Origin: a virus
Reading direction: 5' to 3' (one strand)
Virus record (IMG/VR): IMGVR_UViG_3300030673_000038
Location: 1-29,068 of that record
Length of the DNA: 29,068 nt
A model generated the notes under the pieces. The model saw nothing but the letters and a program-made list of their open reading frames with translations. It ran no database searches and was not told the origin of the DNA. Position 1 is the stretch's first letter. Every line of letters begins with the position of its first letter. The translations under genes were made by a program, and so were the position numbers. Below are positions 2,080 to 24,225 of the stretch, one piece after another.

Positions 2080-2728
2080 GGCAAGTTCCTCCTTTCCTCC
2101 AGTTTAGATGGCAGTAATAGCAGCCAGATCCAGGCTTAGGTGGGTAGACCATAGAGTTGCGTAAGAAGTCAATCTCTTCCGTCAACTTAATTCTTTCGAC
2201 CACAATTTTTGGAGCAAGGTAATCCCGTGTCTCAACGTGGGTAGGGATGTCTAGGTATACGAAGTGCGTGCGGTAGACAAGATAGCTACCCGGCTCCATC
2301 GCGCAGTATGAAAGACCCTGGGACTCATGGTCAGGGTATATCTTGCCAGACTTCCAGTCGAAGATGTCGAGCACTTTAGGGTTCCCGTCCAGCTTAAGAT
2401 CATATTTCCCCCGGTAGTTGGCGTTTGGATCGTTGAACGTGGTCTGGGACCAATCGCTGAGTACTGCGACCTCTCCCTCAGCGGTGTGGGGCTTAATGCT
2501 CAGCCCCTCCATAAAGCGCTGCCAAGGGCGCAGAGTCTTGTTCGCCGCTGGGTATGGCTGGGCCCCAGTGAAGAACAGTTCAAGCTCCAAGTGCAACTCA
2601 GTTCCTCGGTCGCTGGCGGCCCGTGCTGGTGGGTAGTTCCCAGCGACGTATCGGTCAGCCCACTTGAACGGGCACTCCTTGAACAGCTTTAAGCCCGATG
2701 GTGATAGTGGTTTGTTGTAGATGCTCAT
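2066..2728 (-). CDS. PD-(D/E)XK nuclease, Cas4/RecB-like, possible Fe-S cluster
   Basis: A 220-aa protein of the RecB/Cas4-like exonuclease family. It shows the N-terminal SPSGLKLFKECPFKW box, RGTELH (helical motif), the catalytic Asp in RGKYDL near residue 110, and DIFDWKSGK at 121-129 (D-x-K). Cys19 plus Cys203, Cys206 and Cys216 (CYYC...C) reproduce the four-cysteine layout that holds a 4Fe-4S cluster in Cas4 and AddB. Probably a 5'-3' or end-processing exonuclease in phage replication/recombination. The ATG has AAGGA at usable distance. Its first 74 nt are overlapped by the HNH gene upstream. Confidence 0.85.
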   Translation of the reverse strand: MSIYNKPLSPSGLKLFKECPFKWADRYVAGNYPPARAASDRGTELHLELELFFTGAQPYPAANKTLRPWQRFMEGLSIKPHTAEGEVAVLSDWSQTTFNDPNANYRGKYDLKLDGNPKVLDIFDWKSGKIYPDHESQGLSYCAMEPGSYLVYRTHFVYLDIPTHVETRDYLAPKIVVERIKLTEEIDFLRNSMVYPPKPGSGCYYCHLNWRKGGTCRAAR

Positions 2729-3038
2729 ATACGTGTCCTTTTTGGAAGAGCTTAGCCTCTCCGCGCCGGGTGTTTTCGGCTACGGTGACGGGCTCGAGGT
2801 GGGCTGGATTGCAGCAGAGCCGGTTCCTGCACAGATGATCGAGAACGAGTCCAGGCTCAATGGGGCCAATGTGAAGTTGGTACATGACGCGATGTACCAT
2901 GAGCCGTCTACCTTGAATCTCAATTCTCCCGTATCCGTTGCGGTTTTGCTGACCGGTCCAGAGCCAACAGCCATCAGGGCCGCTGCTTTGAATTCTCGTA
3001 TTGATTCGTGTTCCCAGCGGTACAATAGAGCGCCCCAT
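2655..3038 (-). CDS. HNH endonuclease (HNH_3 / zinc-finger His-Me type)
   Basis: A 127-aa protein with DGCWLWTGQQNRNGYGRI, then GLVLDHLCRNRLCCNP and HLEPVT, the typical His-Asn-His metal finger with an extra zinc-binding Cys set found in free-standing phage HNH (homing) endonucleases. The start is the ATG at 3038, six bases after GGGAGG; the frame upstream of it is only antisense-free read-through over polymerase sequence. The gene overlaps the 102-aa membrane ORF at its 5' end and the Cas4-like gene at its 3' end, which looks like an insertion of a selfish element into a compact operon. Could nick DNA to promote its own spread or assist packaging. Confidence 0.9.
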   Translation of the reverse strand: MGRSIVPLGTRINTRIQSSGPDGCWLWTGQQNRNGYGRIEIQGRRLMVHRVMYQLHIGPIEPGLVLDHLCRNRLCCNPAHLEPVTVAENTRRGEAKLFQKGHVYEHLQQTTITIGLKAVQGVPVQVG

Positions 3039-3088
3039 ATCAAACCTCCCAGCGTTATACCGACAACGGCGTACATTAACTCCTTCAT
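2780..3088 (-). CDS. Small membrane protein, overlapped by HNH gene
   Basis: Starts in an ATGA junction with the polymerase stop and has GGAGG just upstream, so initiation is credible. Residues 4-21 form one hydrophobic span (MYAVVGITLGGLIWGALLY) followed by RWEHESIREF, an N-out or N-in single-span topology. After about residue 25 the frame runs under the HNH gene for 259 nt and its composition becomes uninformative. The original gene may have been a ~30-aa microprotein that was lengthened when the HNH gene arrived. Function unknown. Confidence 0.5.
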   Translation of the reverse strand: MKELMYAVVGITLGGLIWGALLYRWEHESIREFKAAALMAVGSGPVSKTATDTGELRFKVDGSWYIASCTNFTLAPLSLDSFSIICAGTGSAAIQPTSSPSP

Positions 3089-4869
3089 TTCGCCTCCGAC
3101 CAGTTGGCCCCAGTGGCGATTTCCATAAGCATAGGGACGTCGCACGGAAGGGCATTAGCTGACTCGTTGATGATCTTGTACACTTCTTCGCGCTGAGAGG
3201 GCAAGTGCGACACGCTATATTCGTCGTGTACAGTACCCAGTAACCGAGCTCCGGGGCAGCGGAGACGTAGCTGCGCATGGGCGTACACAAGAGCCTCTTT
3301 GGTCTCATCAGCTGCGCTACCCTGGATCAGAGTGTTCAGCGCCTTGTAGTCCCAGCGTCGGGCCCCAGTTGGCGGCTCGCAGAAATAGAAGCGGCCCCCA
3401 AGCGTTACGATGGGTAGCCCTGACTTGAAGCGCTTCTTGCACTGATTATCCAGCGCTACGATATCGGGTATGGAAGCCTTGATACAGTTACGCAAGATAG
3501 TAGCCTCTTGCTCGCTGATATCCAGCTTGTCCGCCAGCATGGCGATGCCCATCGCGTACAGCAGCCCCAAGTAGATGCCCTTGGCCTTCTTCCGCTCCGA
3601 GTGCGGCATGCCAGCCACGTCACACAAGAAGATGTATGGGTCCAAGTCAGGATTGGCGTTAAACGCCGCCATGAACTTGCCATCTTCAAAGTGGGCCGCT
3701 AGCCGTGGCTCTTGGTTCTTAAAGTCACCTGTAGTCCACTCGTGACCCTCTTCTGGCAGCAGGTACGAGCGCATCACTGGGAACGGTTCACCGAAGTAGT
3801 CAAGGAAGTCAACTACCGTTGGCACGTTTTGGAAGTTGGGCCCAGTGCTGGACAGGCGCCCAGTGCATGTACCGTAGCCCTCGGGGTTGCGCACTTGGTT
3901 ATAGGCCGCGTGTATGCGCCCGCCGTTGGCCTTGGCGTATTGCAGCCACGGCCACATAAAGGTGCCGGTAAACGTGGCGTAGGTGGCTCTAGAGCGAATC
4001 ATAAGCTGGAGGTCTGGGTCGCCCGCCAGTACAGTCTCCAGGCTCAGCTTGGACATGGAGTCCTTACCAGACTTGGCTGTCTTCAGGAAGCCCGTGAATC
4101 CGTTCGCAACCAACGCCGCACCAAGCTCGGCGTCACTACTGACGTTAAGTGTGGGAGCAGAGAGCCGGTTCCTAATGAGGGAATCCAGTTCACCCAGTTT
4201 GCGCATGGCAACAAGGTAGTCCGTCGCGAGTCTACGAACGTCGCACCGCACTCCAAGGTTCCGTATTTCGGAAAGTATGGGGCCCAGTTTGACTTCCCGT
4301 TGATAGGGTTCGACCATATCCTTAATGAGGGGTTCAACGTGTTCCCACAGAGCCAGCGTCCTTGTACAGTCGCCGACAGCATATGGACCCACAAATCTAA
4401 CCGGAGCCTTGGAGATGTAGACCCCGGCCTCTTTACGAGTGCAGCCGACATTTGCAACGAGCCAATCGTACATATCTTGTTGTTCATCTGGCGGGATCCC
4501 TAGCCAATCCTCAGCCAGATCCTTCAACGAAAGGGAGCGGGCGTGTGGGTTGTGGAGATAACTGGCGAACAGAGTGTCGTCTGTGAGCAGAGGATCCCGC
4601 TCAGGAAGGTTGAAATGGTGAGCAGCGAGAGGAATATCAAAAGTGCAGCCGTTTTGTGTGAGTATCCGGCGGTGCCAGATCGATGCGAGGTATTCACGGA
4701 AATCCTCCTTGGTGCAGTTATTGCCCTCGGGATGGCCCCAAGAGAAGTAATGACCCTCGGGGTATTTATCTGGGTCGATGATAGCGCAACCTACCGGGAT
4801 CGGCAGCAGTGGCGCCCCGTTCTCAATCTTCTCCGACTCAAAGTCGAGCACAATTCCATCGTAGCTCAT
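3085..4869 (-). CDS. Family A DNA polymerase with 3'-5' exonuclease
   Basis: The 594-aa replicative polymerase of the T7/Pol I type, without a 5'-nuclease domain. Exonuclease: LDFESE (ExoI), QNGCTFD (ExoII), YAVGD (ExoIII, near 167). Polymerase: CTGRLSSTGPNFQN, motif A GDFKNQEPR (Asp382), O-helix RKKAKGIYLGLLYAMG (Arg426, Lys430), QGSAAD, and motif C VHDEYS (Asp549). Odd points: motif A has KNQE in place of SQIE, and the O-helix selector position (Phe762 of E. coli Pol I, Tyr526 of T7) is Leu434. Start: ATG at 4869 in an ATGA overlap with the microprotein upstream; a GTG 12 nt earlier is possible. Confidence 0.95.
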   Translation of the reverse strand: MSYDGIVLDFESEKIENGAPLLPIPVGCAIIDPDKYPEGHYFSWGHPEGNNCTKEDFREYLASIWHRRILTQNGCTFDIPLAAHHFNLPERDPLLTDDTLFASYLHNPHARSLSLKDLAEDWLGIPPDEQQDMYDWLVANVGCTRKEAGVYISKAPVRFVGPYAVGDCTRTLALWEHVEPLIKDMVEPYQREVKLGPILSEIRNLGVRCDVRRLATDYLVAMRKLGELDSLIRNRLSAPTLNVSSDAELGAALVANGFTGFLKTAKSGKDSMSKLSLETVLAGDPDLQLMIRSRATYATFTGTFMWPWLQYAKANGGRIHAAYNQVRNPEGYGTCTGRLSSTGPNFQNVPTVVDFLDYFGEPFPVMRSYLLPEEGHEWTTGDFKNQEPRLAAHFEDGKFMAAFNANPDLDPYIFLCDVAGMPHSERKKAKGIYLGLLYAMGIAMLADKLDISEQEATILRNCIKASIPDIVALDNQCKKRFKSGLPIVTLGGRFYFCEPPTGARRWDYKALNTLIQGSAADETKEALVYAHAQLRLRCPGARLLGTVHDEYSVSHLPSQREEVYKIINESANALPCDVPMLMEIATGANWSEAK

Positions 4870-4952
4870 GATAGAGTCCACGCTATAATAACTGACACCA
4901 CGAAGGATACGGCGGCCGAAAGTATCACAACCACTAAGAAATCACTGTCCAT
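4866..4952 (-). CDS. 28-aa single-span membrane microprotein
   Basis: ATG with GAGG eight bases upstream; 28 codons ending in an ATGA overlap with the polymerase start. The product is MDSD followed by an almost uninterrupted hydrophobic helix (FLVVVILSAAVSFVVSVIIA) and WTLS. The strong ribosome-binding site and the exact coupling argue that it is translated, at least to load ribosomes onto the polymerase gene. No known family. It might be a membrane anchor or inhibitor, or only a leader peptide. Confidence 0.6.
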   Translation of the reverse strand: MDSDFLVVVILSAAVSFVVSVIIAWTLS

Positions 4953-4997
4953 ATTATTCACCTCAATGAAGTGGGGGCCACTACGGCCCCCTGGAGC

Positions 4998-5744
4998 TTA
5001 GAACTTGGACTTCTTCCCAGCGGCCTTAACCCGAGCTTCCGCCTCCTCTGGACTAACTTCTGGATTAGGATCGTATACCTTCTCCATCAAGTCCTTGCAG
5101 AGTGCCCCCTTATCCATGAGCGCCTTGATGTAAGAGACATCAACAGGACGCACTGGCTCAAACGTGATGTGGAACTGGTGCTTCATGTCAGGTACGGCCC
5201 CCACCGTAGTGACCATGCCAAGCGGCGGGCGCCCATACTTCAACGCTATCAGGTTGACATAGTTACCCCAGAACTTGATGGAGGTAACCGGGAGGCTTTG
5301 GATGGCGACTTCAGCCTTGTCGATTTCGTCAGCCTGTACATCGGCTGGGATACCGGCCAATTTACGACCATTCTTGCACGCCTTGCCTTTGCCACCTTCT
5401 GGATCAGACTTCCATTGGTTGGCCCAGCACTTGTCGCAGGTCTCGCACTGCGGCTTGGAGCTGGCTGGGTGCGGGGCCATGTTCTCACCGTCAGGGGAGT
5501 AGGCAAAGCAGACAGGGTTGGTGGGGTTGTCTGGGTCCCACTTCTCCTCGTAATACAGGTTGGAGTAGGTGCTGGCAATGACGATCATATCGATCTTATT
5601 GCCTTTGATAGCCTCGCCGTTCATGGTGAGGATACCGGCCTTGCAACCCAGTGTTGAGGAACTTGGACGCTCGGTGGCGGCGGCTGTTTTCGCCATGCCT
5701 TGGAGCAACTTCTCGTAGTCTACAATCTCTGTGCTATCACTCAT
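4998..5744 (-). CDS. Probable ssDNA-binding protein with zinc-binding cysteines
   Basis: A 248-aa protein. The centre carries CETCDKCWANQW followed by GGKGKACKNGRKLAG, a four-Cys group reminiscent of the zinc insert in the OB-fold of phage ssDNA-binding proteins, and the C-terminal part (SIKFWGNYVNLIALKYG, HQFHITFEPV) has beta-rich character. Proteins of this size with the GKACKNxRRL signature are commonly found beside phage polymerases and are usually called ssDNA-binding; I recall this pattern rather than having aligned it. The C-terminus is basic (AAGKKSKF), unlike the acidic SSB tip. It lies just upstream of the polymerase operon, which supports a replication role. Confidence 0.55.
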   Translation of the reverse strand: MSDSTEIVDYEKLLQGMAKTAAATERPSSSTLGCKAGILTMNGEAIKGNKIDMIVIASTYSNLYYEEKWDPDNPTNPVCFAYSPDGENMAPHPASSKPQCETCDKCWANQWKSDPEGGKGKACKNGRKLAGIPADVQADEIDKAEVAIQSLPVTSIKFWGNYVNLIALKYGRPPLGMVTTVGAVPDMKHQFHITFEPVRPVDVSYIKALMDKGALCKDLMEKVYDPNPEVSPEEAEARVKAAGKKSKF

Positions 5745-5761
5745 TTCTCAGTACTCAGTAA

Positions 5762-6281: not shown

Positions 6282-6617
6282 TCACTGCCCGTTACTCCCA
6301 GTCGCCATCATGGCGTCGTTTTCTTTAATGAAGACGCCGTCAACCATCTTACCTTTACGGTCCTTGATGATATTCCATACATCTTCAAGAATGTTTGCTG
6401 GGGTACTGCCACGCTGGGCGCACATGATTATGGCGATGACCATGATGTCACCGAGCGCATCATCAACCACCTCATTTTTGCCGCGTGCCAATCCAGCCGC
6501 AAGCTCGCCAACTTCCTCAACAAGCTTAACGAACTGCTTGTCAACGGTACTGCCTGCGATAAGGTTGCGGTCATTGGCCCACCCCAGCACTTTTGCTGTC
6601 AGTTCATCCATACGCAT
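6282..6617 (-). CDS. MazG-like nucleotide pyrophosphohydrolase
   Basis: A 111-aa all-alpha NTP pyrophosphatase. KLVEEVGELAAGLARGKN (EExxE, residues 34-38) and EVVDDALGDIMVIAI (ExxD and D-x3-D, residues 49-57) are the metal-binding motifs of the MazG/dUTPase-like superfamily. It hydrolyses (d)NTPs to NMPs; in phages it may clean non-canonical nucleotides or alter host nucleotide pools. The first ATG follows GGAG. The next gene upstream ends three bases before it. About 170 nt of non-coding sequence with a promoter follow it. Confidence 0.88.
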   Translation of the reverse strand: MRMDELTAKVLGWANDRNLIAGSTVDKQFVKLVEEVGELAAGLARGKNEVVDDALGDIMVIAIIMCAQRGSTPANILEDVWNIIKDRKGKMVDGVFIKENDAMMATGSNGQ

Positions 6618-6619
6618 AA

Positions 6620-7027
6620 TTAAGATCTCCGATCAAATAGTTCAAATACATCGGTGTGGCCGATGCCCGGCACTTTGACGCCATTCATCTCGCGCTCTTC
6701 AACGGCCGAGTTGGACAGGCGGAATTGCAGAAGATCAAGTTCACCGGTCTTCTTAATGTAGTCCATGAAGGCGGTCTTGTCTTCAACGATGGGCACTTCC
6801 TTCTTGGAGAGCCCTGTAATGCGGCCCCCGATCAGCATACCCTCAAACTTTTGCTGCTTGAATACTTCCAAGAGCCAGGAGCTTAGAGCGACCTCCTTCT
6901 TCTTCAGCTCTTCCATGATGCGGTTAGCTTCCAAGCGCTTAGTGCGCTGCTCCCTCCACATAGAGATGATTTCTTCGGTCTGAGCGCGTGTCGCTTCCAG
7001 CACTGGAACTTTGATGATATCAGTCAT
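6620..7027 (-). CDS. Conserved phage protein with N-terminal coiled coil
   Basis: 135 aa from the ATG at 7027 (GGAG ten bases upstream; the frame upstream only runs over the neighbouring gene). Residues ~10-60 form a charged helix (IISMWREQRTKRLEANRIMEE), then a small beta region (MLIGGRITGLSKKEVPIVED), and a C-terminal motif with FMDYIKKTGELDLLQFRL and a VPGIG..DVFEL ending. I recognise this layout from many phage genomes, where it stays of unknown function and lies among replication genes. It overlaps the P-loop gene upstream by 8 nt. Confidence 0.75.
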   Translation of the reverse strand: MTDIIKVPVLEATRAQTEEIISMWREQRTKRLEANRIMEELKKKEVALSSWLLEVFKQQKFEGMLIGGRITGLSKKEVPIVEDKTAFMDYIKKTGELDLLQFRLSNSAVEEREMNGVKVPGIGHTDVFELFDRRS

Positions 7028-7379
7028 AGCGGTGAAACTCCGAGATGATACGGTTATGGGCCAAGCGCACGGCCTCGTGGTCAAAGAACACTGAACCCTC
7101 TGGGGCCCCAGTTAGGAACAGGCCGTCCATCTTGACGTTTGGGTTCTTCATAGTGCAGAATACCATCTTGCCACCGTCGCTCAGCAAGAAGGTACGGTCA
7201 TGCTGGCACCAAGCGCCACGCGGGTCGATCTTGGCGAGTATGGGTCCAATTTGGGACATATCGCCAGTGGCTAGCACGACGTACGCCTTACTACCCACGC
7301 TGGCCGCGTGCTTTGCAGCAGCAAGCAGCATTTTAGACGTACGACCTGACCGTCTATTGTCGTATTTAAGGTCACTCAT
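7020..7379 (-). CDS. Small P-loop-like NTPase fragment (GRTSK motif)
   Basis: 119 aa. RRSGRTSKMLLAAAKHA at residues 9-25 resembles the variant Walker A (GRT[ST]xM) of small phage P-loop proteins; KAYVVLATGDM would be the following strand. No clear Walker B: LDGLF-like strands near residue 85 lack a DE pair, so activity is uncertain. It begins in an ATGA overlap with the preceding gene and overlaps the next by 8 nt, so it is an operon member. Role unknown. Confidence 0.65.
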   Translation of the reverse strand: MSDLKYDNRRSGRTSKMLLAAAKHAASVGSKAYVVLATGDMSQIGPILAKIDPRGAWCQHDRTFLLSDGGKMVFCTMKNPNVKMDGLFLTGAPEGSVFFDHEAVRLAHNRIISEFHRYD

Positions 7380-7687
7380 TCTTCCACCCTCTTAACGAAT
7401 ACGCGAGTACCATTTAGAGCGCTACGTTCCCAGAGCAGGGCCTGTAGACTGCGGCCCATAACTGTGACGTCGTGCTTGTTTGGGGCCTCACCGTAGATGT
7501 CGGCCCATAGTTGATCAGCGTATATGATGTAGTGCTCAGCACCACGGAAGTTGCGCTTGTACTCAGACAGATCAATCGCTGCCAGTTTAGCTTCGAGTTC
7601 AGCAGTGTAGATCGGGTCTTCCATTGGGGAGATAGCCCGTTTCAGTCTCAGATTCTCCGACTGTAACTCTTCGTATGTAGGTTTCAT
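7376..7687 (-). CDS. Hypothetical protein with N-terminal coiled coil (103 aa)
   Basis: Starts at ATG about 25 nt downstream of the predicted transcription start of the promoter at 7712-7746. The first ~17 residues (TYEELQSENLRLKRAI) form a leucine-spaced coiled coil, followed by acidic and aromatic sequence (SEYKRNFRGAEHYIIYADQ). No family recognised. Ends in ATGA overlap with the P-loop gene. Confidence 0.7.
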   Translation of the reverse strand: MKPTYEELQSENLRLKRAISPMEDPIYTAELEAKLAAIDLSEYKRNFRGAEHYIIYADQLWADIYGEAPNKHDVTVMGRSLQALLWERSALNGTRVFVKRVEE

Positions 7688-7711
7688 GATACTAGCCCTT
7701 GGTTAATTACT

Positions 7712-7746
7712 GGTGCAACTATAGCAGGCTTGTGGCCGGGGTGCAA
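7712..7746 (-). promoter_or_regulatory. Sigma70-like leftward promoter with TTGCACC element
   Basis: Minus strand: -35 TTGCAC (7741-7746), 17-bp spacer, -10 TATAGT (7718-7723), overlapped by TTGCACC (7712-7718), then AACCAA in the start region. It lies in the only gap of this operon and drives the coiled-coil, P-loop, 135-aa and MazG genes. Confidence 0.8.
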
Positions 7747-8013
7747 CTAGGGGCAGCAACTCTTCGGCGGGCCTTCCCCACAGTAATATAAACCCCCCTC
7801 GTAGTTCGGCAGCCCACGGTTTTCGCAGTACGGACCCGAGCACCTTACTTCGTGTAACTCGCCAGATCCTTCGCATACTCTACAAGTCGTATGCGCGGTC
7901 TTTGAGGTATGGCACCCATTACCATCGCAGTACTCACACTCTTCGGCCCCATCATCTGGCTCGTGGTTCTGAGACTCTGCTAACTCCTGCGTCCAGTCAG
8001 CAAATGATTTCAT
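7747..8013 (-). CDS. Small DnaJ-type zinc-finger protein
   Basis: 88 aa with two CxxCxGxG repeats: CEYCDGNG (Cys26, Cys29) and CRVCEGSG (Cys44, Cys47), the pairing seen in the DnaJ cysteine-rich domain. There is no J-domain (no HPD). More Cys pairs follow (RCSGPYCENRG, YYCGEG, SCCP), so a second zinc site is possible. It may bind a protein or nucleic acid; it could mimic the substrate-handling zinc domain of host DnaJ. Its start and the previous stop share one base. Confidence 0.75.
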   Translation of the reverse strand: MKSFADWTQELAESQNHEPDDGAEECEYCDGNGCHTSKTAHTTCRVCEGSGELHEVRCSGPYCENRGLPNYEGGLYYCGEGPPKSCCP

Positions 8014-9274: not shown

Positions 9275-9462
9275 TTTACGTTCCTTTGGCGCCTCGCCAG
9301 TTGTGCCACGACGTGCTCAGTGCTGAGCGCTCGGCTCAACTCCAGCTTGCTGAAATCACGGACGTACTGCTTAGCGCTCGGCACGGCTACATTAGCCTTG
9401 GAGTGTCGCAGGAACAGGATCTCAACGCTCGGCACTTTGCGATTAACACGTGTCTTAGACAT
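9271..9462 (-). CDS. Small basic protein, first gene of leftward operon (63 aa)
   Basis: ATG preceded by AAGGGG, about 35 nt downstream of the predicted transcription start of the divergent leftward promoter. Strongly basic (MSKTRVNRKVPSVEILFLRH, ARRQRNVK), short beta then helix. A first-expressed small basic protein is often a host-takeover or DNA-binding factor, but no family is recognised. Confidence 0.7.
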   Translation of the reverse strand: MSKTRVNRKVPSVEILFLRHSKANVAVPSAKQYVRDFSKLELSRALSTEHVVAQLARRQRNVK

Positions 9463-9498
9463 TTTGTAGCCCCTTGCTGGAGTGGTTTTGGTTGGTAC

Positions 9499-9533
9499 GG
9501 TGCAACTATAGCGCGGCCTATATAGTAGTGCAA
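9499..9533 (-). promoter_or_regulatory. Leftward early promoter
   Basis: Minus strand: -35 TTGCAC (9528-9533), 17 bp, -10 TATAGT (9505-9510), TTGCACC (9499-9505), then GTACCAACC. This is the head promoter of the leftward gene set and forms the left half of a mirror-image control region. Confidence 0.85.
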
Positions 9534-9565
9534 CTGCTTTATTTAATCAAATTACAAAATAGTGG

Positions 9566-9601
9566 TTGCACTGCTTATATAGGCTGGGCTATAGTTGCAC
9601 C
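9566..9601 (+). promoter_or_regulatory. Rightward early promoter
   Basis: -35 TTGCAC (9566-9571), 18-bp spacer, -10 TATAGT (9590-9595), TTGCACC (9595-9601), then TTAACCAACCC in the start region. It drives the SSB-tip-mimic gene and the genes after it. Confidence 0.85.
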
Positions 9602-9632
9602 ACGTTAACCAACCCAAGCAAAGGTGCCTCAA

Positions 9633-9995
9633 ATGAAACAGTTTACCAAGCCTCTACCCACCAAGCTCTACCTCCATCTGTCACTGCAAAGCTGGGGGGA
9701 CGACTGGACTATCTTTACCGACCCCTGCATGCGGGACTCAAAATCTAATAAAGAATACCCATTCATTGCTGAGGTGGAAGTCACTTGGCCCGTAACGCTT
9801 GAAGACGTACAGGGCCAGTACCACAATATCAAGTTGGGGGCCCTGTATAAAAAGGCTGGCGAGGCACAACACGCTCTGGATAAGATTAACGAGGAAATCC
9901 GTAACATGCTAGCCATCGGGCATGACGAAGAAGAACACGCTAAGGAGCAGGTCCTTAGTGATGAAGATATCTTCGACGACGACATCCCATTCTAG
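9633..9995 (+). CDS. Early protein with an SSB-type C-terminal tip
   Basis: 120 aa from the ATG with AAGG eight bases upstream (a GTG nine bases earlier is less well placed). The last seven residues, FDDDIPF, are identical to the C-terminal tip of E. coli SSB and follow an acidic stretch (VLSDEDI), so the tail should dock on the host proteins that recognise SSB (for example RecQ, RecO, PriA, ExoI, HolC). The rest (KLYLHLSLQSWGDDWTIF, EYPFIAEVEVTWPV, then a helical region) is beta-rich then helical and is not an obvious SSB OB-fold, though a divergent one cannot be excluded. First gene of the rightward early unit. Confidence 0.8.
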   Translation: MKQFTKPLPTKLYLHLSLQSWGDDWTIFTDPCMRDSKSNKEYPFIAEVEVTWPVTLEDVQGQYHNIKLGALYKKAGEAQHALDKINEEIRNMLAIGHDEEEHAKEQVLSDEDIFDDDIPF

Positions 9996-11395: not shown

Positions 11396-13564
11396 ATGGC
11401 AACTAAATTTTTTACAGATGCCGGAAGTACCTACTTACAAGAGGCAGCTGAGTATTTAGAAGCTCGGTGCCTTACTATCCAAGATTGTCCCATCATTCCA
11501 TTCTGCACCAAGAACCACGGGCTCAGCCTCAAGGATGGTACTGACTATCCATTGCAGGGCTGGGCCTTTATGGTCAAGGGCGAGGACGGTTTACCAGACG
11601 ATACCAAACGACATCTACGGGTCTGCAACTACCCCGAGCAGGCCCTTTATTTTGTGCGGGGTAAACTGGCCCAAGTGTACGCCGACCGCCCCAAGTTCTT
11701 GCAGATGTTCAAGGGTGAGTTCCTGCACTTCACCAAACCGAAAGATGTTATATGTCACGCTAACGTGGTGATGCTTCATGAGAAAATTACGAGCGCGGAA
11801 CTGGCGACGAAGTTTCTGGAAATACCGGGGCTGGCTATTAGCGGATGCGCCGGATGGTCAAAGAATGGGAAGATGGGTGAGCAACTCGAGCATACCATCA
11901 AAAACATGGCGCTTGGGGCAAAACTTCTTGTTTGTTTTGACGGTGATATCTCCTACAAGCCCGGAATTCAAGAAGCAGCTAAAGGACTTAAAGGCTGGAT
12001 CAATCTCATTCGAGACGATATCAAAGTTGTGTTCCTAGAAGTACCAGAGAACGAGCGCGGTGTAGGCTGGGACGACTGGTGCATGGAGCAGCCCCAAGGG
12101 CAGATCGCTGCCAACTGGGCAATGGAGATACTACGACAGCAGACCGGCGTTGAGATAACTGACTTCGTACCTCCTGGCTTCCTAATCGCCGAGTACCAGT
12201 TAGAGACCAAGGAAGATAAGTTCCATAACATCAGCGCCGTCCATACCCTGGATAATTACATGCGATTGACCCGCTATCCAAAGTGGGCCCAACTAGCCAT
12301 GGACATTAGTAACCAGATCTATGATATGAGCAATATTGACGCTGGGCCCAAGGACTTCGACTCGTTGGTTATGGACTTCCGCACTTGGCTAGAGACCAGC
12401 GCCTACCGTGGCAATGGCGAAAGCGTGCGCAACACCTTCGCTAAGGATGCCCTGAACTACCTACTCAGCACTCGTAAGACCAGCATACCGCTGGAGCTAT
12501 TGGAGCGCCAAGAGCCAGTTACCGAGGACCAAGCATATGCTGCGGCAAATAGACTTATCACTGAGGGCATTAAAGTCACCGGTCCGCTCACTCAAGAGCA
12601 AACGGCTGAGACGATTATACGCATGTCACGGGATATCGTTGCACTTTGGTCGCTTGATCCTAATGTTGACGTCCAATGGGCCTGCGCACTTGTCGGTCCG
12701 TCTGGTTGTGGGAAGTCAAACTTTCCGCATTCCTTTATCGCCGCGCTGGGCGACTGGGGCTACCGACCGAGAGTAGGGAAGCTCGCCAAAGATGGGGCCA
12801 AATCCGAACTCGGCGAGCTGTATAAGGCTTGCCGAGACAATCTATTAGGAGTCTTCGATGAATACAATCCAGCTGATGGCAATGCTAAACAGGTTGAGCA
12901 GAACATCTTTACCCTTAGCACGACACGATCTACGGATGTGCGAGAGCTCTATAAGGAATATGCGAGTGAATGCACACGACATTCCTCAATATTCCTCACT
13001 ACTGTCGATACTAACAGAGGCTATATCAGATCTTCAAAAGGCGACGGCGAGCGTAGATTCATTACGCTTGAAGTTGTTGGAGTTCATCACTACTATGGAA
13101 GACTCACCTCCAACCGTGATGTCATCAAAGAATGCGGCGCTACCCTCCTGCGATACGGGTATCAACTCTTCAGAGCAGGGGACACTCGCTCAGCTACTGA
13201 GCACTCAGAATCCACCGCCGAGCAATACATAAGCGAGTCTAATGTGGTGGGCCGCATGGGACAATTCTGGGCCAAGGCGGACATCTGGCAGATGCTTAAG
13301 AAGACGGGGGAGGAAGCATTCCGCGCCAAGACCGGCGACTGGCGTATGCAAATGTCGCTGCTCGTAGAGACCTTCATGCCTAGTGATGGAAGATTGTTGC
13401 CAAGACAGGAAAAGGCCGATCTCATTGCTATGATCAAGGAGTGCGGGGCCAAGGACATCGGCCAAGCCCGCGTTAGGATACAGGGCGTTGACGCTCTCAA
13501 GAAGGGTGTCGTGTCCATTGAAGACTGGGTTGCGTTCTGTGAGGCGATGGTGGCACGCTTCTAG
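11396..13564 (+). CDS. Primase-helicase (DUF3854 Toprim-like + SF3/VapE-like ATPase)
   Basis: 722 aa. The N-terminal half has the Toprim-like DUF3854 pattern: LAISGCAGWSKNGKMG, then KLLVCFDGDISYKPG near residue 182 and VVFLEVPENERGVGWDDWC. The C-terminal half is a superfamily 3 helicase of the VirE/D5 type: Walker A GPSGCGKS at 434-441, LGVFDEYN (Asp488-Glu489) as Walker B, then TTVDTNRGYIRSSKGDGERRF with the sensor and arginine finger. It should prime and unwind DNA for the family A polymerase encoded on the other strand. GGAG sits six bases before the ATG. Length fits this phage family. Confidence 0.88.
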   Translation: MATKFFTDAGSTYLQEAAEYLEARCLTIQDCPIIPFCTKNHGLSLKDGTDYPLQGWAFMVKGEDGLPDDTKRHLRVCNYPEQALYFVRGKLAQVYADRPKFLQMFKGEFLHFTKPKDVICHANVVMLHEKITSAELATKFLEIPGLAISGCAGWSKNGKMGEQLEHTIKNMALGAKLLVCFDGDISYKPGIQEAAKGLKGWINLIRDDIKVVFLEVPENERGVGWDDWCMEQPQGQIAANWAMEILRQQTGVEITDFVPPGFLIAEYQLETKEDKFHNISAVHTLDNYMRLTRYPKWAQLAMDISNQIYDMSNIDAGPKDFDSLVMDFRTWLETSAYRGNGESVRNTFAKDALNYLLSTRKTSIPLELLERQEPVTEDQAYAAANRLITEGIKVTGPLTQEQTAETIIRMSRDIVALWSLDPNVDVQWACALVGPSGCGKSNFPHSFIAALGDWGYRPRVGKLAKDGAKSELGELYKACRDNLLGVFDEYNPADGNAKQVEQNIFTLSTTRSTDVRELYKEYASECTRHSSIFLTTVDTNRGYIRSSKGDGERRFITLEVVGVHHYYGRLTSNRDVIKECGATLLRYGYQLFRAGDTRSATEHSESTAEQYISESNVVGRMGQFWAKADIWQMLKKTGEEAFRAKTGDWRMQMSLLVETFMPSDGRLLPRQEKADLIAMIKECGAKDIGQARVRIQGVDALKKGVVSIEDWVAFCEAMVARF

Positions 13565-13578
13565 TGATAAAATAATAT

Positions 13579-13612
13579 TTGCACGGTGCAACTATAGGGG
13601 CTATAGTTGCAC
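13579..13612 (+). promoter_or_regulatory. Rightward promoter overlapping a perfect 12-bp-arm palindrome
   Basis: -35 TTGCAC (13579-13584), 17 bp, -10 TATAGT (13602-13607), TTGCAC (13607-13612), then TGTACCCACCAAC. The spacer holds the same element reversed: GTGCAACTATAG (13586-13597) and CTATAGTTGCAC (13601-13612) are perfect inverted repeats around GGG. Probably operator-controlled; drives the microprotein genes after it. Confidence 0.85.
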
Positions 13613-23324: not shown

Positions 23325-23759
23325 ATGATTCCCATCGCGATCGTCAGCGGTCTGTTTGACATAGGTAAGAACCTGATCGATAAGCTAATACCGGACCCAG
23401 CGGCGAATGCTGCGGCCCAACTTGAGCTCATGCGCTTGGACCAGAATGGTCAGTTGACGCAGCTACAGCTTCAGATGTCCGCTATTCTGGCAGAAGCTAA
23501 CAGCACTGACCCATGGACTTCACGTGCTAGACCATCATTCATGTATCTATTCTACATAGTAATTTTAGCTATGGTAGTCATAGCTCCTATGGTGGGCATA
23601 TGGTTTCCTCTATCAATGGATATGTTTTTTACAAATGTGAGTAAGGGGTTCAATGCCATCCCCAGTGAATTATGGACCACATTCACTATAGGGTATGTAG
23701 GATATTCTGCTAGTAAAACTTACGAACAGACTAAGGGGGCTAAGAATCCTGGAAAGTAA
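23325..23759 (+). CDS. Holin, 3-TM (GTA holin) type
   Basis: 144 aa. Amphipathic N-terminal part (GKNLIDKLIPDPAANAAAQL, LQLQMSAILAEANSTDPWTS) leading to RARPSFMYLFYIVILAMVVI and a second hydrophobic stretch (APMVGIWFPLSM) and a final one (TFTIGYVGYSASKTYEQTK). The 'RARP' turn and the three-span layout match the 3TM holin family. It would form the membrane lesion that frees the muramidase. Its last 20 nt overlap the converging HNH gene. Confidence 0.85.
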   Translation: MIPIAIVSGLFDIGKNLIDKLIPDPAANAAAQLELMRLDQNGQLTQLQLQMSAILAEANSTDPWTSRARPSFMYLFYIVILAMVVIAPMVGIWFPLSMDMFFTNVSKGFNAIPSELWTTFTIGYVGYSASKTYEQTKGAKNPGK

Positions 23760-24225
23760 ATTCCCCGAAGTATTTTTCTTCGGCAGCCGCCCTAGCTTTT
23801 AGAGCGGCTTCTTCGTTTTCGAAACTCCCTAAGTGTATTGATTCTGCATTGACTTTTATGCGGGCATACCACTTATTTCTATCCGATCTGAAATACACTC
23901 CAGCCAATGAGCACATAGATCTATTCATACTATTCTGTGATCTAGTGGCTAATCTCATATTATCATCTATATTATTTAGACCATTTGTATCTTTATGGTC
24001 TATTTCGTATCCTTCAGGTATAGAGCCATGTCTCATTATCCACATTACTATATGTAGCATATAGCTCTTATCATTAATGGAAACCCTTAAATACCCCTTC
24101 CCAGCATTAGAACCAGCTTCCTTTCCCACGGATCTACCCCTAGACGGCATCTTCCATACTAGATGTGTCCCCATATCATGAAACATTTCTAATAGTTCAT
24201 CTTGGCTAGGATATTGGCGCTTCAT
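23740..24225 (-). CDS. HNH homing endonuclease with AP2 domain
   Basis: 161 aa. HNH part: GYLRVSINDKSYMLHIVMWI, EGYEIDHKDTNGLNNIDDNM and LATRSQNSMNR; AP2-like DNA-binding part: GVYFRSDRNKWYARIKVN, IHLGSFENEEAALKARAAAE. This combination is typical of phage-borne homing endonucleases. It lies against the direction of the surrounding structural operon, between holin and capsid, and its DNA looks more AT-rich than its neighbours, which suggests recent transfer. AGGG lies seven bases before the ATG. Confidence 0.93.
   Translation of the reverse strand: MKRQYPSQDELLEMFHDMGTHLVWKMPSRGRSVGKEAGSNAGKGYLRVSINDKSYMLHIVMWIMRHGSIPEGYEIDHKDTNGLNNIDDNMRLATRSQNSMNRSMCSLAGVYFRSDRNKWYARIKVNAESIHLGSFENEEAALKARAAAEEKYFGEFTFQDS

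Follow-up and report, generated by a model that had tools for sequence, protein, structure and literature searches.

The window analysed here, i.e., the whole stretch of 29,068 nucleotides, corresponds to an IMG/VR virus record of 29 kb. The capsid protein shares 74% identity with its counterpart in Stenotrophomonas phage BUCT555 and 58% with the one in Myxococcus phage Mx8. The replication genes, coding for a family A DNA polymerase (3085-4881, minus strand; PF00476, E 1.4e-43), a nuclease, and a helicase, are arranged in a leftward unit, while a VapE-like primase/helicase (11396-13564, plus strand; PF05272, E 3e-4, below its cut-off) is located farther along the rightward unit. At the head of the latter lies the coding sequence of a 120-amino acid protein, termed P0001 (9633-9995, plus strand). 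The ATG is favoured as its start, being preceded by AAAGGTG at a distance of a few bases; a GTG located 9 bases upstream is also possible.

P0001 is preceded by a divergent control region (9488-9612) that contains a 37-nt imperfect inverted repeat and is flanked by two copies of the element CTATAGTTGCAC. Six exact copies of this element are present in the window on either strand (144-155, 7713-7724, 9500-9511, 9589-9600, 13586-13597, and 13601-13612), each of them associated with TTGCAC or TTGCAT followed, after 17-18 bases, by TATAGT. In front of P0001, the promoter-like element (9566-9600, plus strand) consists of TTGCAC (9566-9571), 18 nucleotides, and TATAGT (9590-9595), and overlaps the CTATAGTTGCAC copy at 9589-9600; the ATG starts 33 bases past the last base of that copy. 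The element also occurs in the sibling record and is absent from the more distant sisters. A promoter consensus scan did not call the promoter-like elements at these sites. Judged from their sequence, the sites are likely phage early promoters with a shared built-in operator.

The C-terminus of P0001 reads EQVLSDEDIFDDDIPF-stop, with DEDIFDDDIPF as the final residues. Translation and pattern searches place the FDDDIPF tip, which is identical to the C-terminal tip (SSB-Ct) of bacterial single-stranded DNA-binding proteins (SSB), at 9972-9992 of the plus strand, directly abutting the stop codon, and the chain end has the form found in bacterial SSBs, i.e., an acidic tip terminating in I/L-P-F. 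Among the last 24 residues, 11 are Asp or Glu and one is Lys or Arg. The initial annotation had read both an SSB tip and a preceding acidic stretch from the DNA, and both readings are borne out. From the amino-acid composition, such an end would arise by chance with a probability of ~1e-9 per gene, or ~5e-8 for 45 genes. A pattern search with back-translated FDDDIPF-stop yielded at least 120 matches in viral_contigs, a collection of 2.9 million viral contigs, while the scrambled FDIDDPF-stop, made up of the same codons, yielded none; the tip is, hence, a specific signal, and a chance origin was rejected.

Additional support for the gene is provided by the sibling contig G002, which encodes a P0001 homologue with 96% identity. 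The two coding sequences are distinguished by 15 synonymous and five non-synonymous codon changes (dN 0.018, dS 0.239, dN/dS ~0.07), from which it follows that the reading frame is real; the gene is under strong purifying selection between window and sibling. The tip codons are identical in both, and two linker residues differ.

According to the initial annotation, the remainder of the protein is not clearly an SSB fold, and this view is upheld. Structure prediction, which had been proposed as a check for an OB-fold in the N-terminal part, was performed with AlphaFold2 on a six-member alignment and returned, at low confidence, a three-stranded beta part (residues 11-49, positions 9663-9779; pLDDT 53-66) with strands at residues 11-17, 24-28, and 44-49. 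It is followed by a long helix (residues 63-96, positions 9819-9920) with a hydrophobic heptad and invariant GxAQ ... LA motifs, and by a disordered acidic linker (residues 97-113, positions 9921-9971; pLDDT ~45-50). The five models were alike in confidence, which is low (mean pLDDT 61.6, pTM 0.39), and the elements had appeared in the same order in an earlier three-sequence run. An OB-fold is absent from this low-confidence structure. Foldseek comparison of the model with BFVD and the PDB returned nothing at E <= 0.001 and no OB-fold among the matches; the best BFVD match is an unnamed viral protein (E 0.018). Pfam, PHROGs, and PDB sequence searches with the family likewise gave nothing convincing. 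The top Pfam score is a single-member match to Mg296 (E 0.0048), and the sole PHROG match of P0001 is phrog_23715 of unknown function (E 0.095), with no match to any PHROG family called single strand DNA binding protein. The P0001 family scores below zero bits against a local SSB profile, and a PF00436 match is missing not only from P0001 but from the whole record. A canonical SSB identity of P0001 was, therefore, rejected, with the reservation that the structural part of this judgement comes from a low-confidence model.

Five relatives of P0001 were found, all in one phage group, with identities of 26-96% (26-38% if the sibling is left aside). The four relatives other than the sibling (L142, L143, L144, and L145) were retrieved by means of conserved synteny and a hand-made motif pattern; L143 and L145 were recognized, at E 3e-28 and 4e-25, respectively, by an HMM derived from the initial four members. 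Searching viral_contigs with a three-member alignment as guide revealed no further relatives, and two pattern matches in genome_contigs, namely, L137, which is read antisense to another gene, and L138, from a histidine kinase region, were dismissed as chance matches. Comparison of the window with annotated phages by tblastn and megablast gave no match to P0001 or its region. No precedent for the P0001 family exists in the libraries searched; its tip is an already known element, found here in an unusual location.

Within the family, the invariant positions reside mostly in the helix, where all six sequences have hydrophobic residues (Ala and one Cys counted) at positions 68, 71, 75, 78, 82, 85, 89, and 92. 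This pattern is compatible with a coiled coil or with a helix packed on a sheet and, given the hydrophobic heptad in all six predicted helices, P0001 may self-associate and present several tips. The linker, comprising ~17 low-confidence residues in P0001, varies in length across the six members and is longer and Pro-rich in L144. The tip is exact in three of the six members, including L144, and near-exact in two, with L142 ending in FDDDVGF and L143 in FGDDTPF. By analogy with E. coli, where a Pro-to-Ser exchange at the penultimate site of SSB-Ct weakens binding (PMC10164576), the FDDDVGF end of L142, with Gly in place of this Pro, may bind more weakly. The L145 homologue (7711-7989) stops after the helix and lacks the tail, making it a natural tail-less control; the tip is accordingly not required for retention of the gene, and preservation of the body despite loss of the tail indicates that the body has a use of its own. 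The family pattern of a variable linker and an end kept in five of six members is the behaviour of a short linear docking motif.

The gene order surrounding P0001 deserves attention. It had been described as the first gene of the rightward early unit, which is true for the window, where it is encoded on the plus strand; in the four sister phages L142-L145, however, the homologue lies in the leftward unit beside the replication genes. This implies a change of position in the lineage of the window. In these sisters, the P0001 homologue is followed downstream by homologues of 7376-7687, 7020-7379, 6620-7084, the MazG-like gene, the gene at 4998-5744, and the polymerase, nuclease, and helicase genes; an overlap with the gene preceding it is seen in L142, L143, and L145.

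A profile search for PF00436 was negative in all six family records, with positive controls. PF10991, representing the Enc34-type ssDNA-binding protein, was not found in any of the six records either, with a weak control insofar as one control genome matched, below the cut-off. A candidate for the DNA-binding protein of the phage is the Cys-containing protein encoded next to the polymerase (4998-5744, minus strand), which ends in KSKF. Its family has conserved Cys residues and is always found near a family A polymerase, and all seven relatives in the alignment terminate in [KR][FY]; in BUCT555, the corresponding slot is taken by a phage SSB ending in FSDDDIPF. From its position, this protein may be a DNA-binding protein devoid of an acidic tip, in which case P0001 would be the supplier of the tip. 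In more distant phages possessing the 4998-5744 protein, no tip-bearing ORF was seen in the stretches read.

How far the tip itself is informative can be judged from its occurrence on other proteins. Of the 120 tip-bearing viral ORFs, 50 fit, among the matches listed, the canonical SSB profile, which was built from seeds within the tip-bearing set. PHROGs searches with ten other tip bodies, the BUCT555 protein counted, assigned four to families called single strand DNA binding protein (phrog_6015/378, 18154/7364, and 743). In the genome of Hahella, the only one with matches of the two scanned, both tip matches terminate SSB-like proteins. The idea that every tip-bearing phage ORF would be a non-SSB was rejected, many of them being phage SSBs. 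With the tip occurring on SSBs and non-SSBs, it proves by itself neither identity.

Several bodies unrelated to P0001 share its tip. FDDDIPF terminates the SF2 helicases L054 and L080 as well as a 73-75-amino acid, helical-looking phrog_1811 protein with almost no linker (L016, 2980-3003; L093, 3479-3700), and it is found on the unnamed proteins L043 and L119 of unknown function. In L013, a CAP12/Pycsar-type TIR protein (4873-5748; PF10137), a defence-type effector, ends in DFDSFDDDIPF; its gene closes what by eye appears to be a cluster of tail, lysis, and methylase genes. These unrelated bodies seem to have acquired the tip independently, and the wider non-SSB set carrying FDDDIPF suggests that phages have borrowed the SSB-Ct motif more than once. 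Such a portable motif, on the P0001 family, helicases, small helical proteins, and a TIR effector, would plug the phage into the host SSB hub. It is conceivable, if rather doubtful, that SSB-Ct is used by phages as a portable docking motif on unrelated proteins that are not themselves SSBs and that, in the present group, it comes in trans from a separate and probably oligomeric P0001, while the DNA-binding protein of the replication module has no acidic tip.

Concerning the function of P0001, the binding mode of SSB-Ct is instructive. Its known binding pockets bury the terminal Phe, with a basic lip holding the alpha-carboxyl group and a basic ridge holding the Asp residues, and thus require a tip located at the extreme C-terminus, as in P0001; without the Phe, binding is lost, and this deletion is lethal in E. 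coli (PMC10164576). P0001 offers the required Phe, carboxyl, and Asp groups on a predicted flexible tether, and its tip is, as far as can be read from the sequence, most likely a working docking peptide. The beta part and the heptad helix, likely self-associating, would carry a flexible acidic tail ending in the host SSB-Ct; the terminal Phe and carboxylate would fit the SSB-Ct pockets of, for example, PriA, RecO, RecQ, ExoI, RecG, chi, and DnaG, and one or more of these host SSB-binding enzymes would be brought to the phage replication module. That P0001 is an early adaptor docking host SSB-binding enzymes is the best reading at hand, albeit a tentative one that falls somewhat short of an even chance. 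It is preferred because the replication module is without a recognizable acidic-tailed SSB and the gene adjoins that module in four sisters. The distant relative BUCT555, which carries DDDIPF on an SSB-like protein adjoining its polymerase instead, supports this reading. Counting against it are the tail-less L145, the altered Pro in FDDDVGF of L142, the FGDDTPF end of L143, the lack of a tip-bearing ORF in the stretches read of more distant phages that have the 4998-5744 protein, and the weak model. The mimicry of a host interaction hub put forward in the initial annotation is partly supported; for its role, we rely on inference.

A different use of the same peptide, rather unlikely yet the main rival, would be that of a decoy, where early and abundant P0001 occupies the pockets for SSB-Ct on host repair enzymes and thereby shields phage DNA or blocks host DNA repair. 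The exact host-type tip and the location as first gene behind a promoter-like element are in line with this, as is the disturbance of genome maintenance by small-molecule inhibitors of SSB docking, one of which imitates the Pro-Phe end (PMC3594151). The protein would have to be present in many copies, however, since single tips bind at micromolar affinity (~3 uM for RecG; PMC10164576). Moreover, the gene lies inside the replication unit and not at an early-unit head in four sisters, and conservation of the body after loss of the tip in L145 would be unexpected for a pure decoy. It is this placement within the replication module, seen in four of the six phages, together with the retained body, that favours the adaptor, the choice being mainly one of gene position. 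A further scenario, which is quite improbable, is that a phage enzyme such as the polymerase, the VapE-like primase, or the helicase recognizes the tip instead of host enzymes. P0001 travels with the phage replication genes, and in phage HK620 the SSB tail is required by the phage's own Sak4 (PMC5928155); yet the tip matches the host consensus and varies among relatives that retain 44-60% identity in polymerase, helicase, and primase.

That P0001 is a divergent phage ssDNA-binding protein, the body of which binds ssDNA unseen by profiles while the tip works as in any SSB, is unlikely. Several tip-bearing phage proteins outside PF00436 belong to PHROGs called single strand DNA binding protein, and both the share of tip-bearing ORFs fitting the SSB profile and the lack of PF00436 in the phage speak in its favour. 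The predicted three strands and long helix, low in confidence as they are, differ from a five-stranded barrel and retrieved no OB-fold by Foldseek, the SSB profile scores are negative for the family, and the slot beside the polymerase is taken by the 4998-5744 protein. Least probable is that the tail is a relic, acquired by recombination with an SSB gene and of little present use. Its loss in L145 and its alteration in L142 and L143 would be explained in this way; the exact tips of three and near-exact tips of two of the six members, and the identity of the tip in window and sibling, where the gene is under strong purifying selection, are difficult to reconcile with it.

In comparison with bacterial SSB (PF00436), P0001 shares a tail, predicted to be disordered, with C-terminal FDDDIPF and differs in having no OB-fold by profile or prediction, a linker of only about 17 residues, and a predicted body of three strands and a helix. 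Tip-bearing phage SSBs (phrog_18154, phrog_7364, and phrog_743; BUCT555, 9410-9865) have in common with P0001 the replication/recombination module and the SSB-type end; they are annotated as ssDNA-binding, and their sequences are unrelated to the P0001 body. The SSB of phage HK620, which ends in NDYPPF, is another phage replication/recombination protein with an SSB-type end. If the decoy scenario holds, P0001 would resemble the phage-encoded recombination inhibitors T7 gp5.9 and P22 Abc2 in being aimed at host DNA repair. Both of these bind RecBCD itself, and we know of no SSB tip involved in their action. No description of phage SSB-tip mimicry was found in the open-access literature searched. 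SSB-Ct serves as the principal docking peptide in bacterial DNA metabolism and is also a drug target; a phage non-SSB body equipped with it would provide a natural probe or inhibitor of the SSB hub and a rapid means of asking which SSB-binding enzymes are important during infection.

Two minor observations concern the remaining genes of the window. The MazG-like gene (6282-6617, minus strand) is 86-91% identical in the sisters, compared with 34-60% for other early genes, and the L144 ORF matching it is interrupted by extra residues. The ORFs at 2655-3308 and 23740-24225, both on the minus strand, have by eye the look of HNH homing endonucleases.
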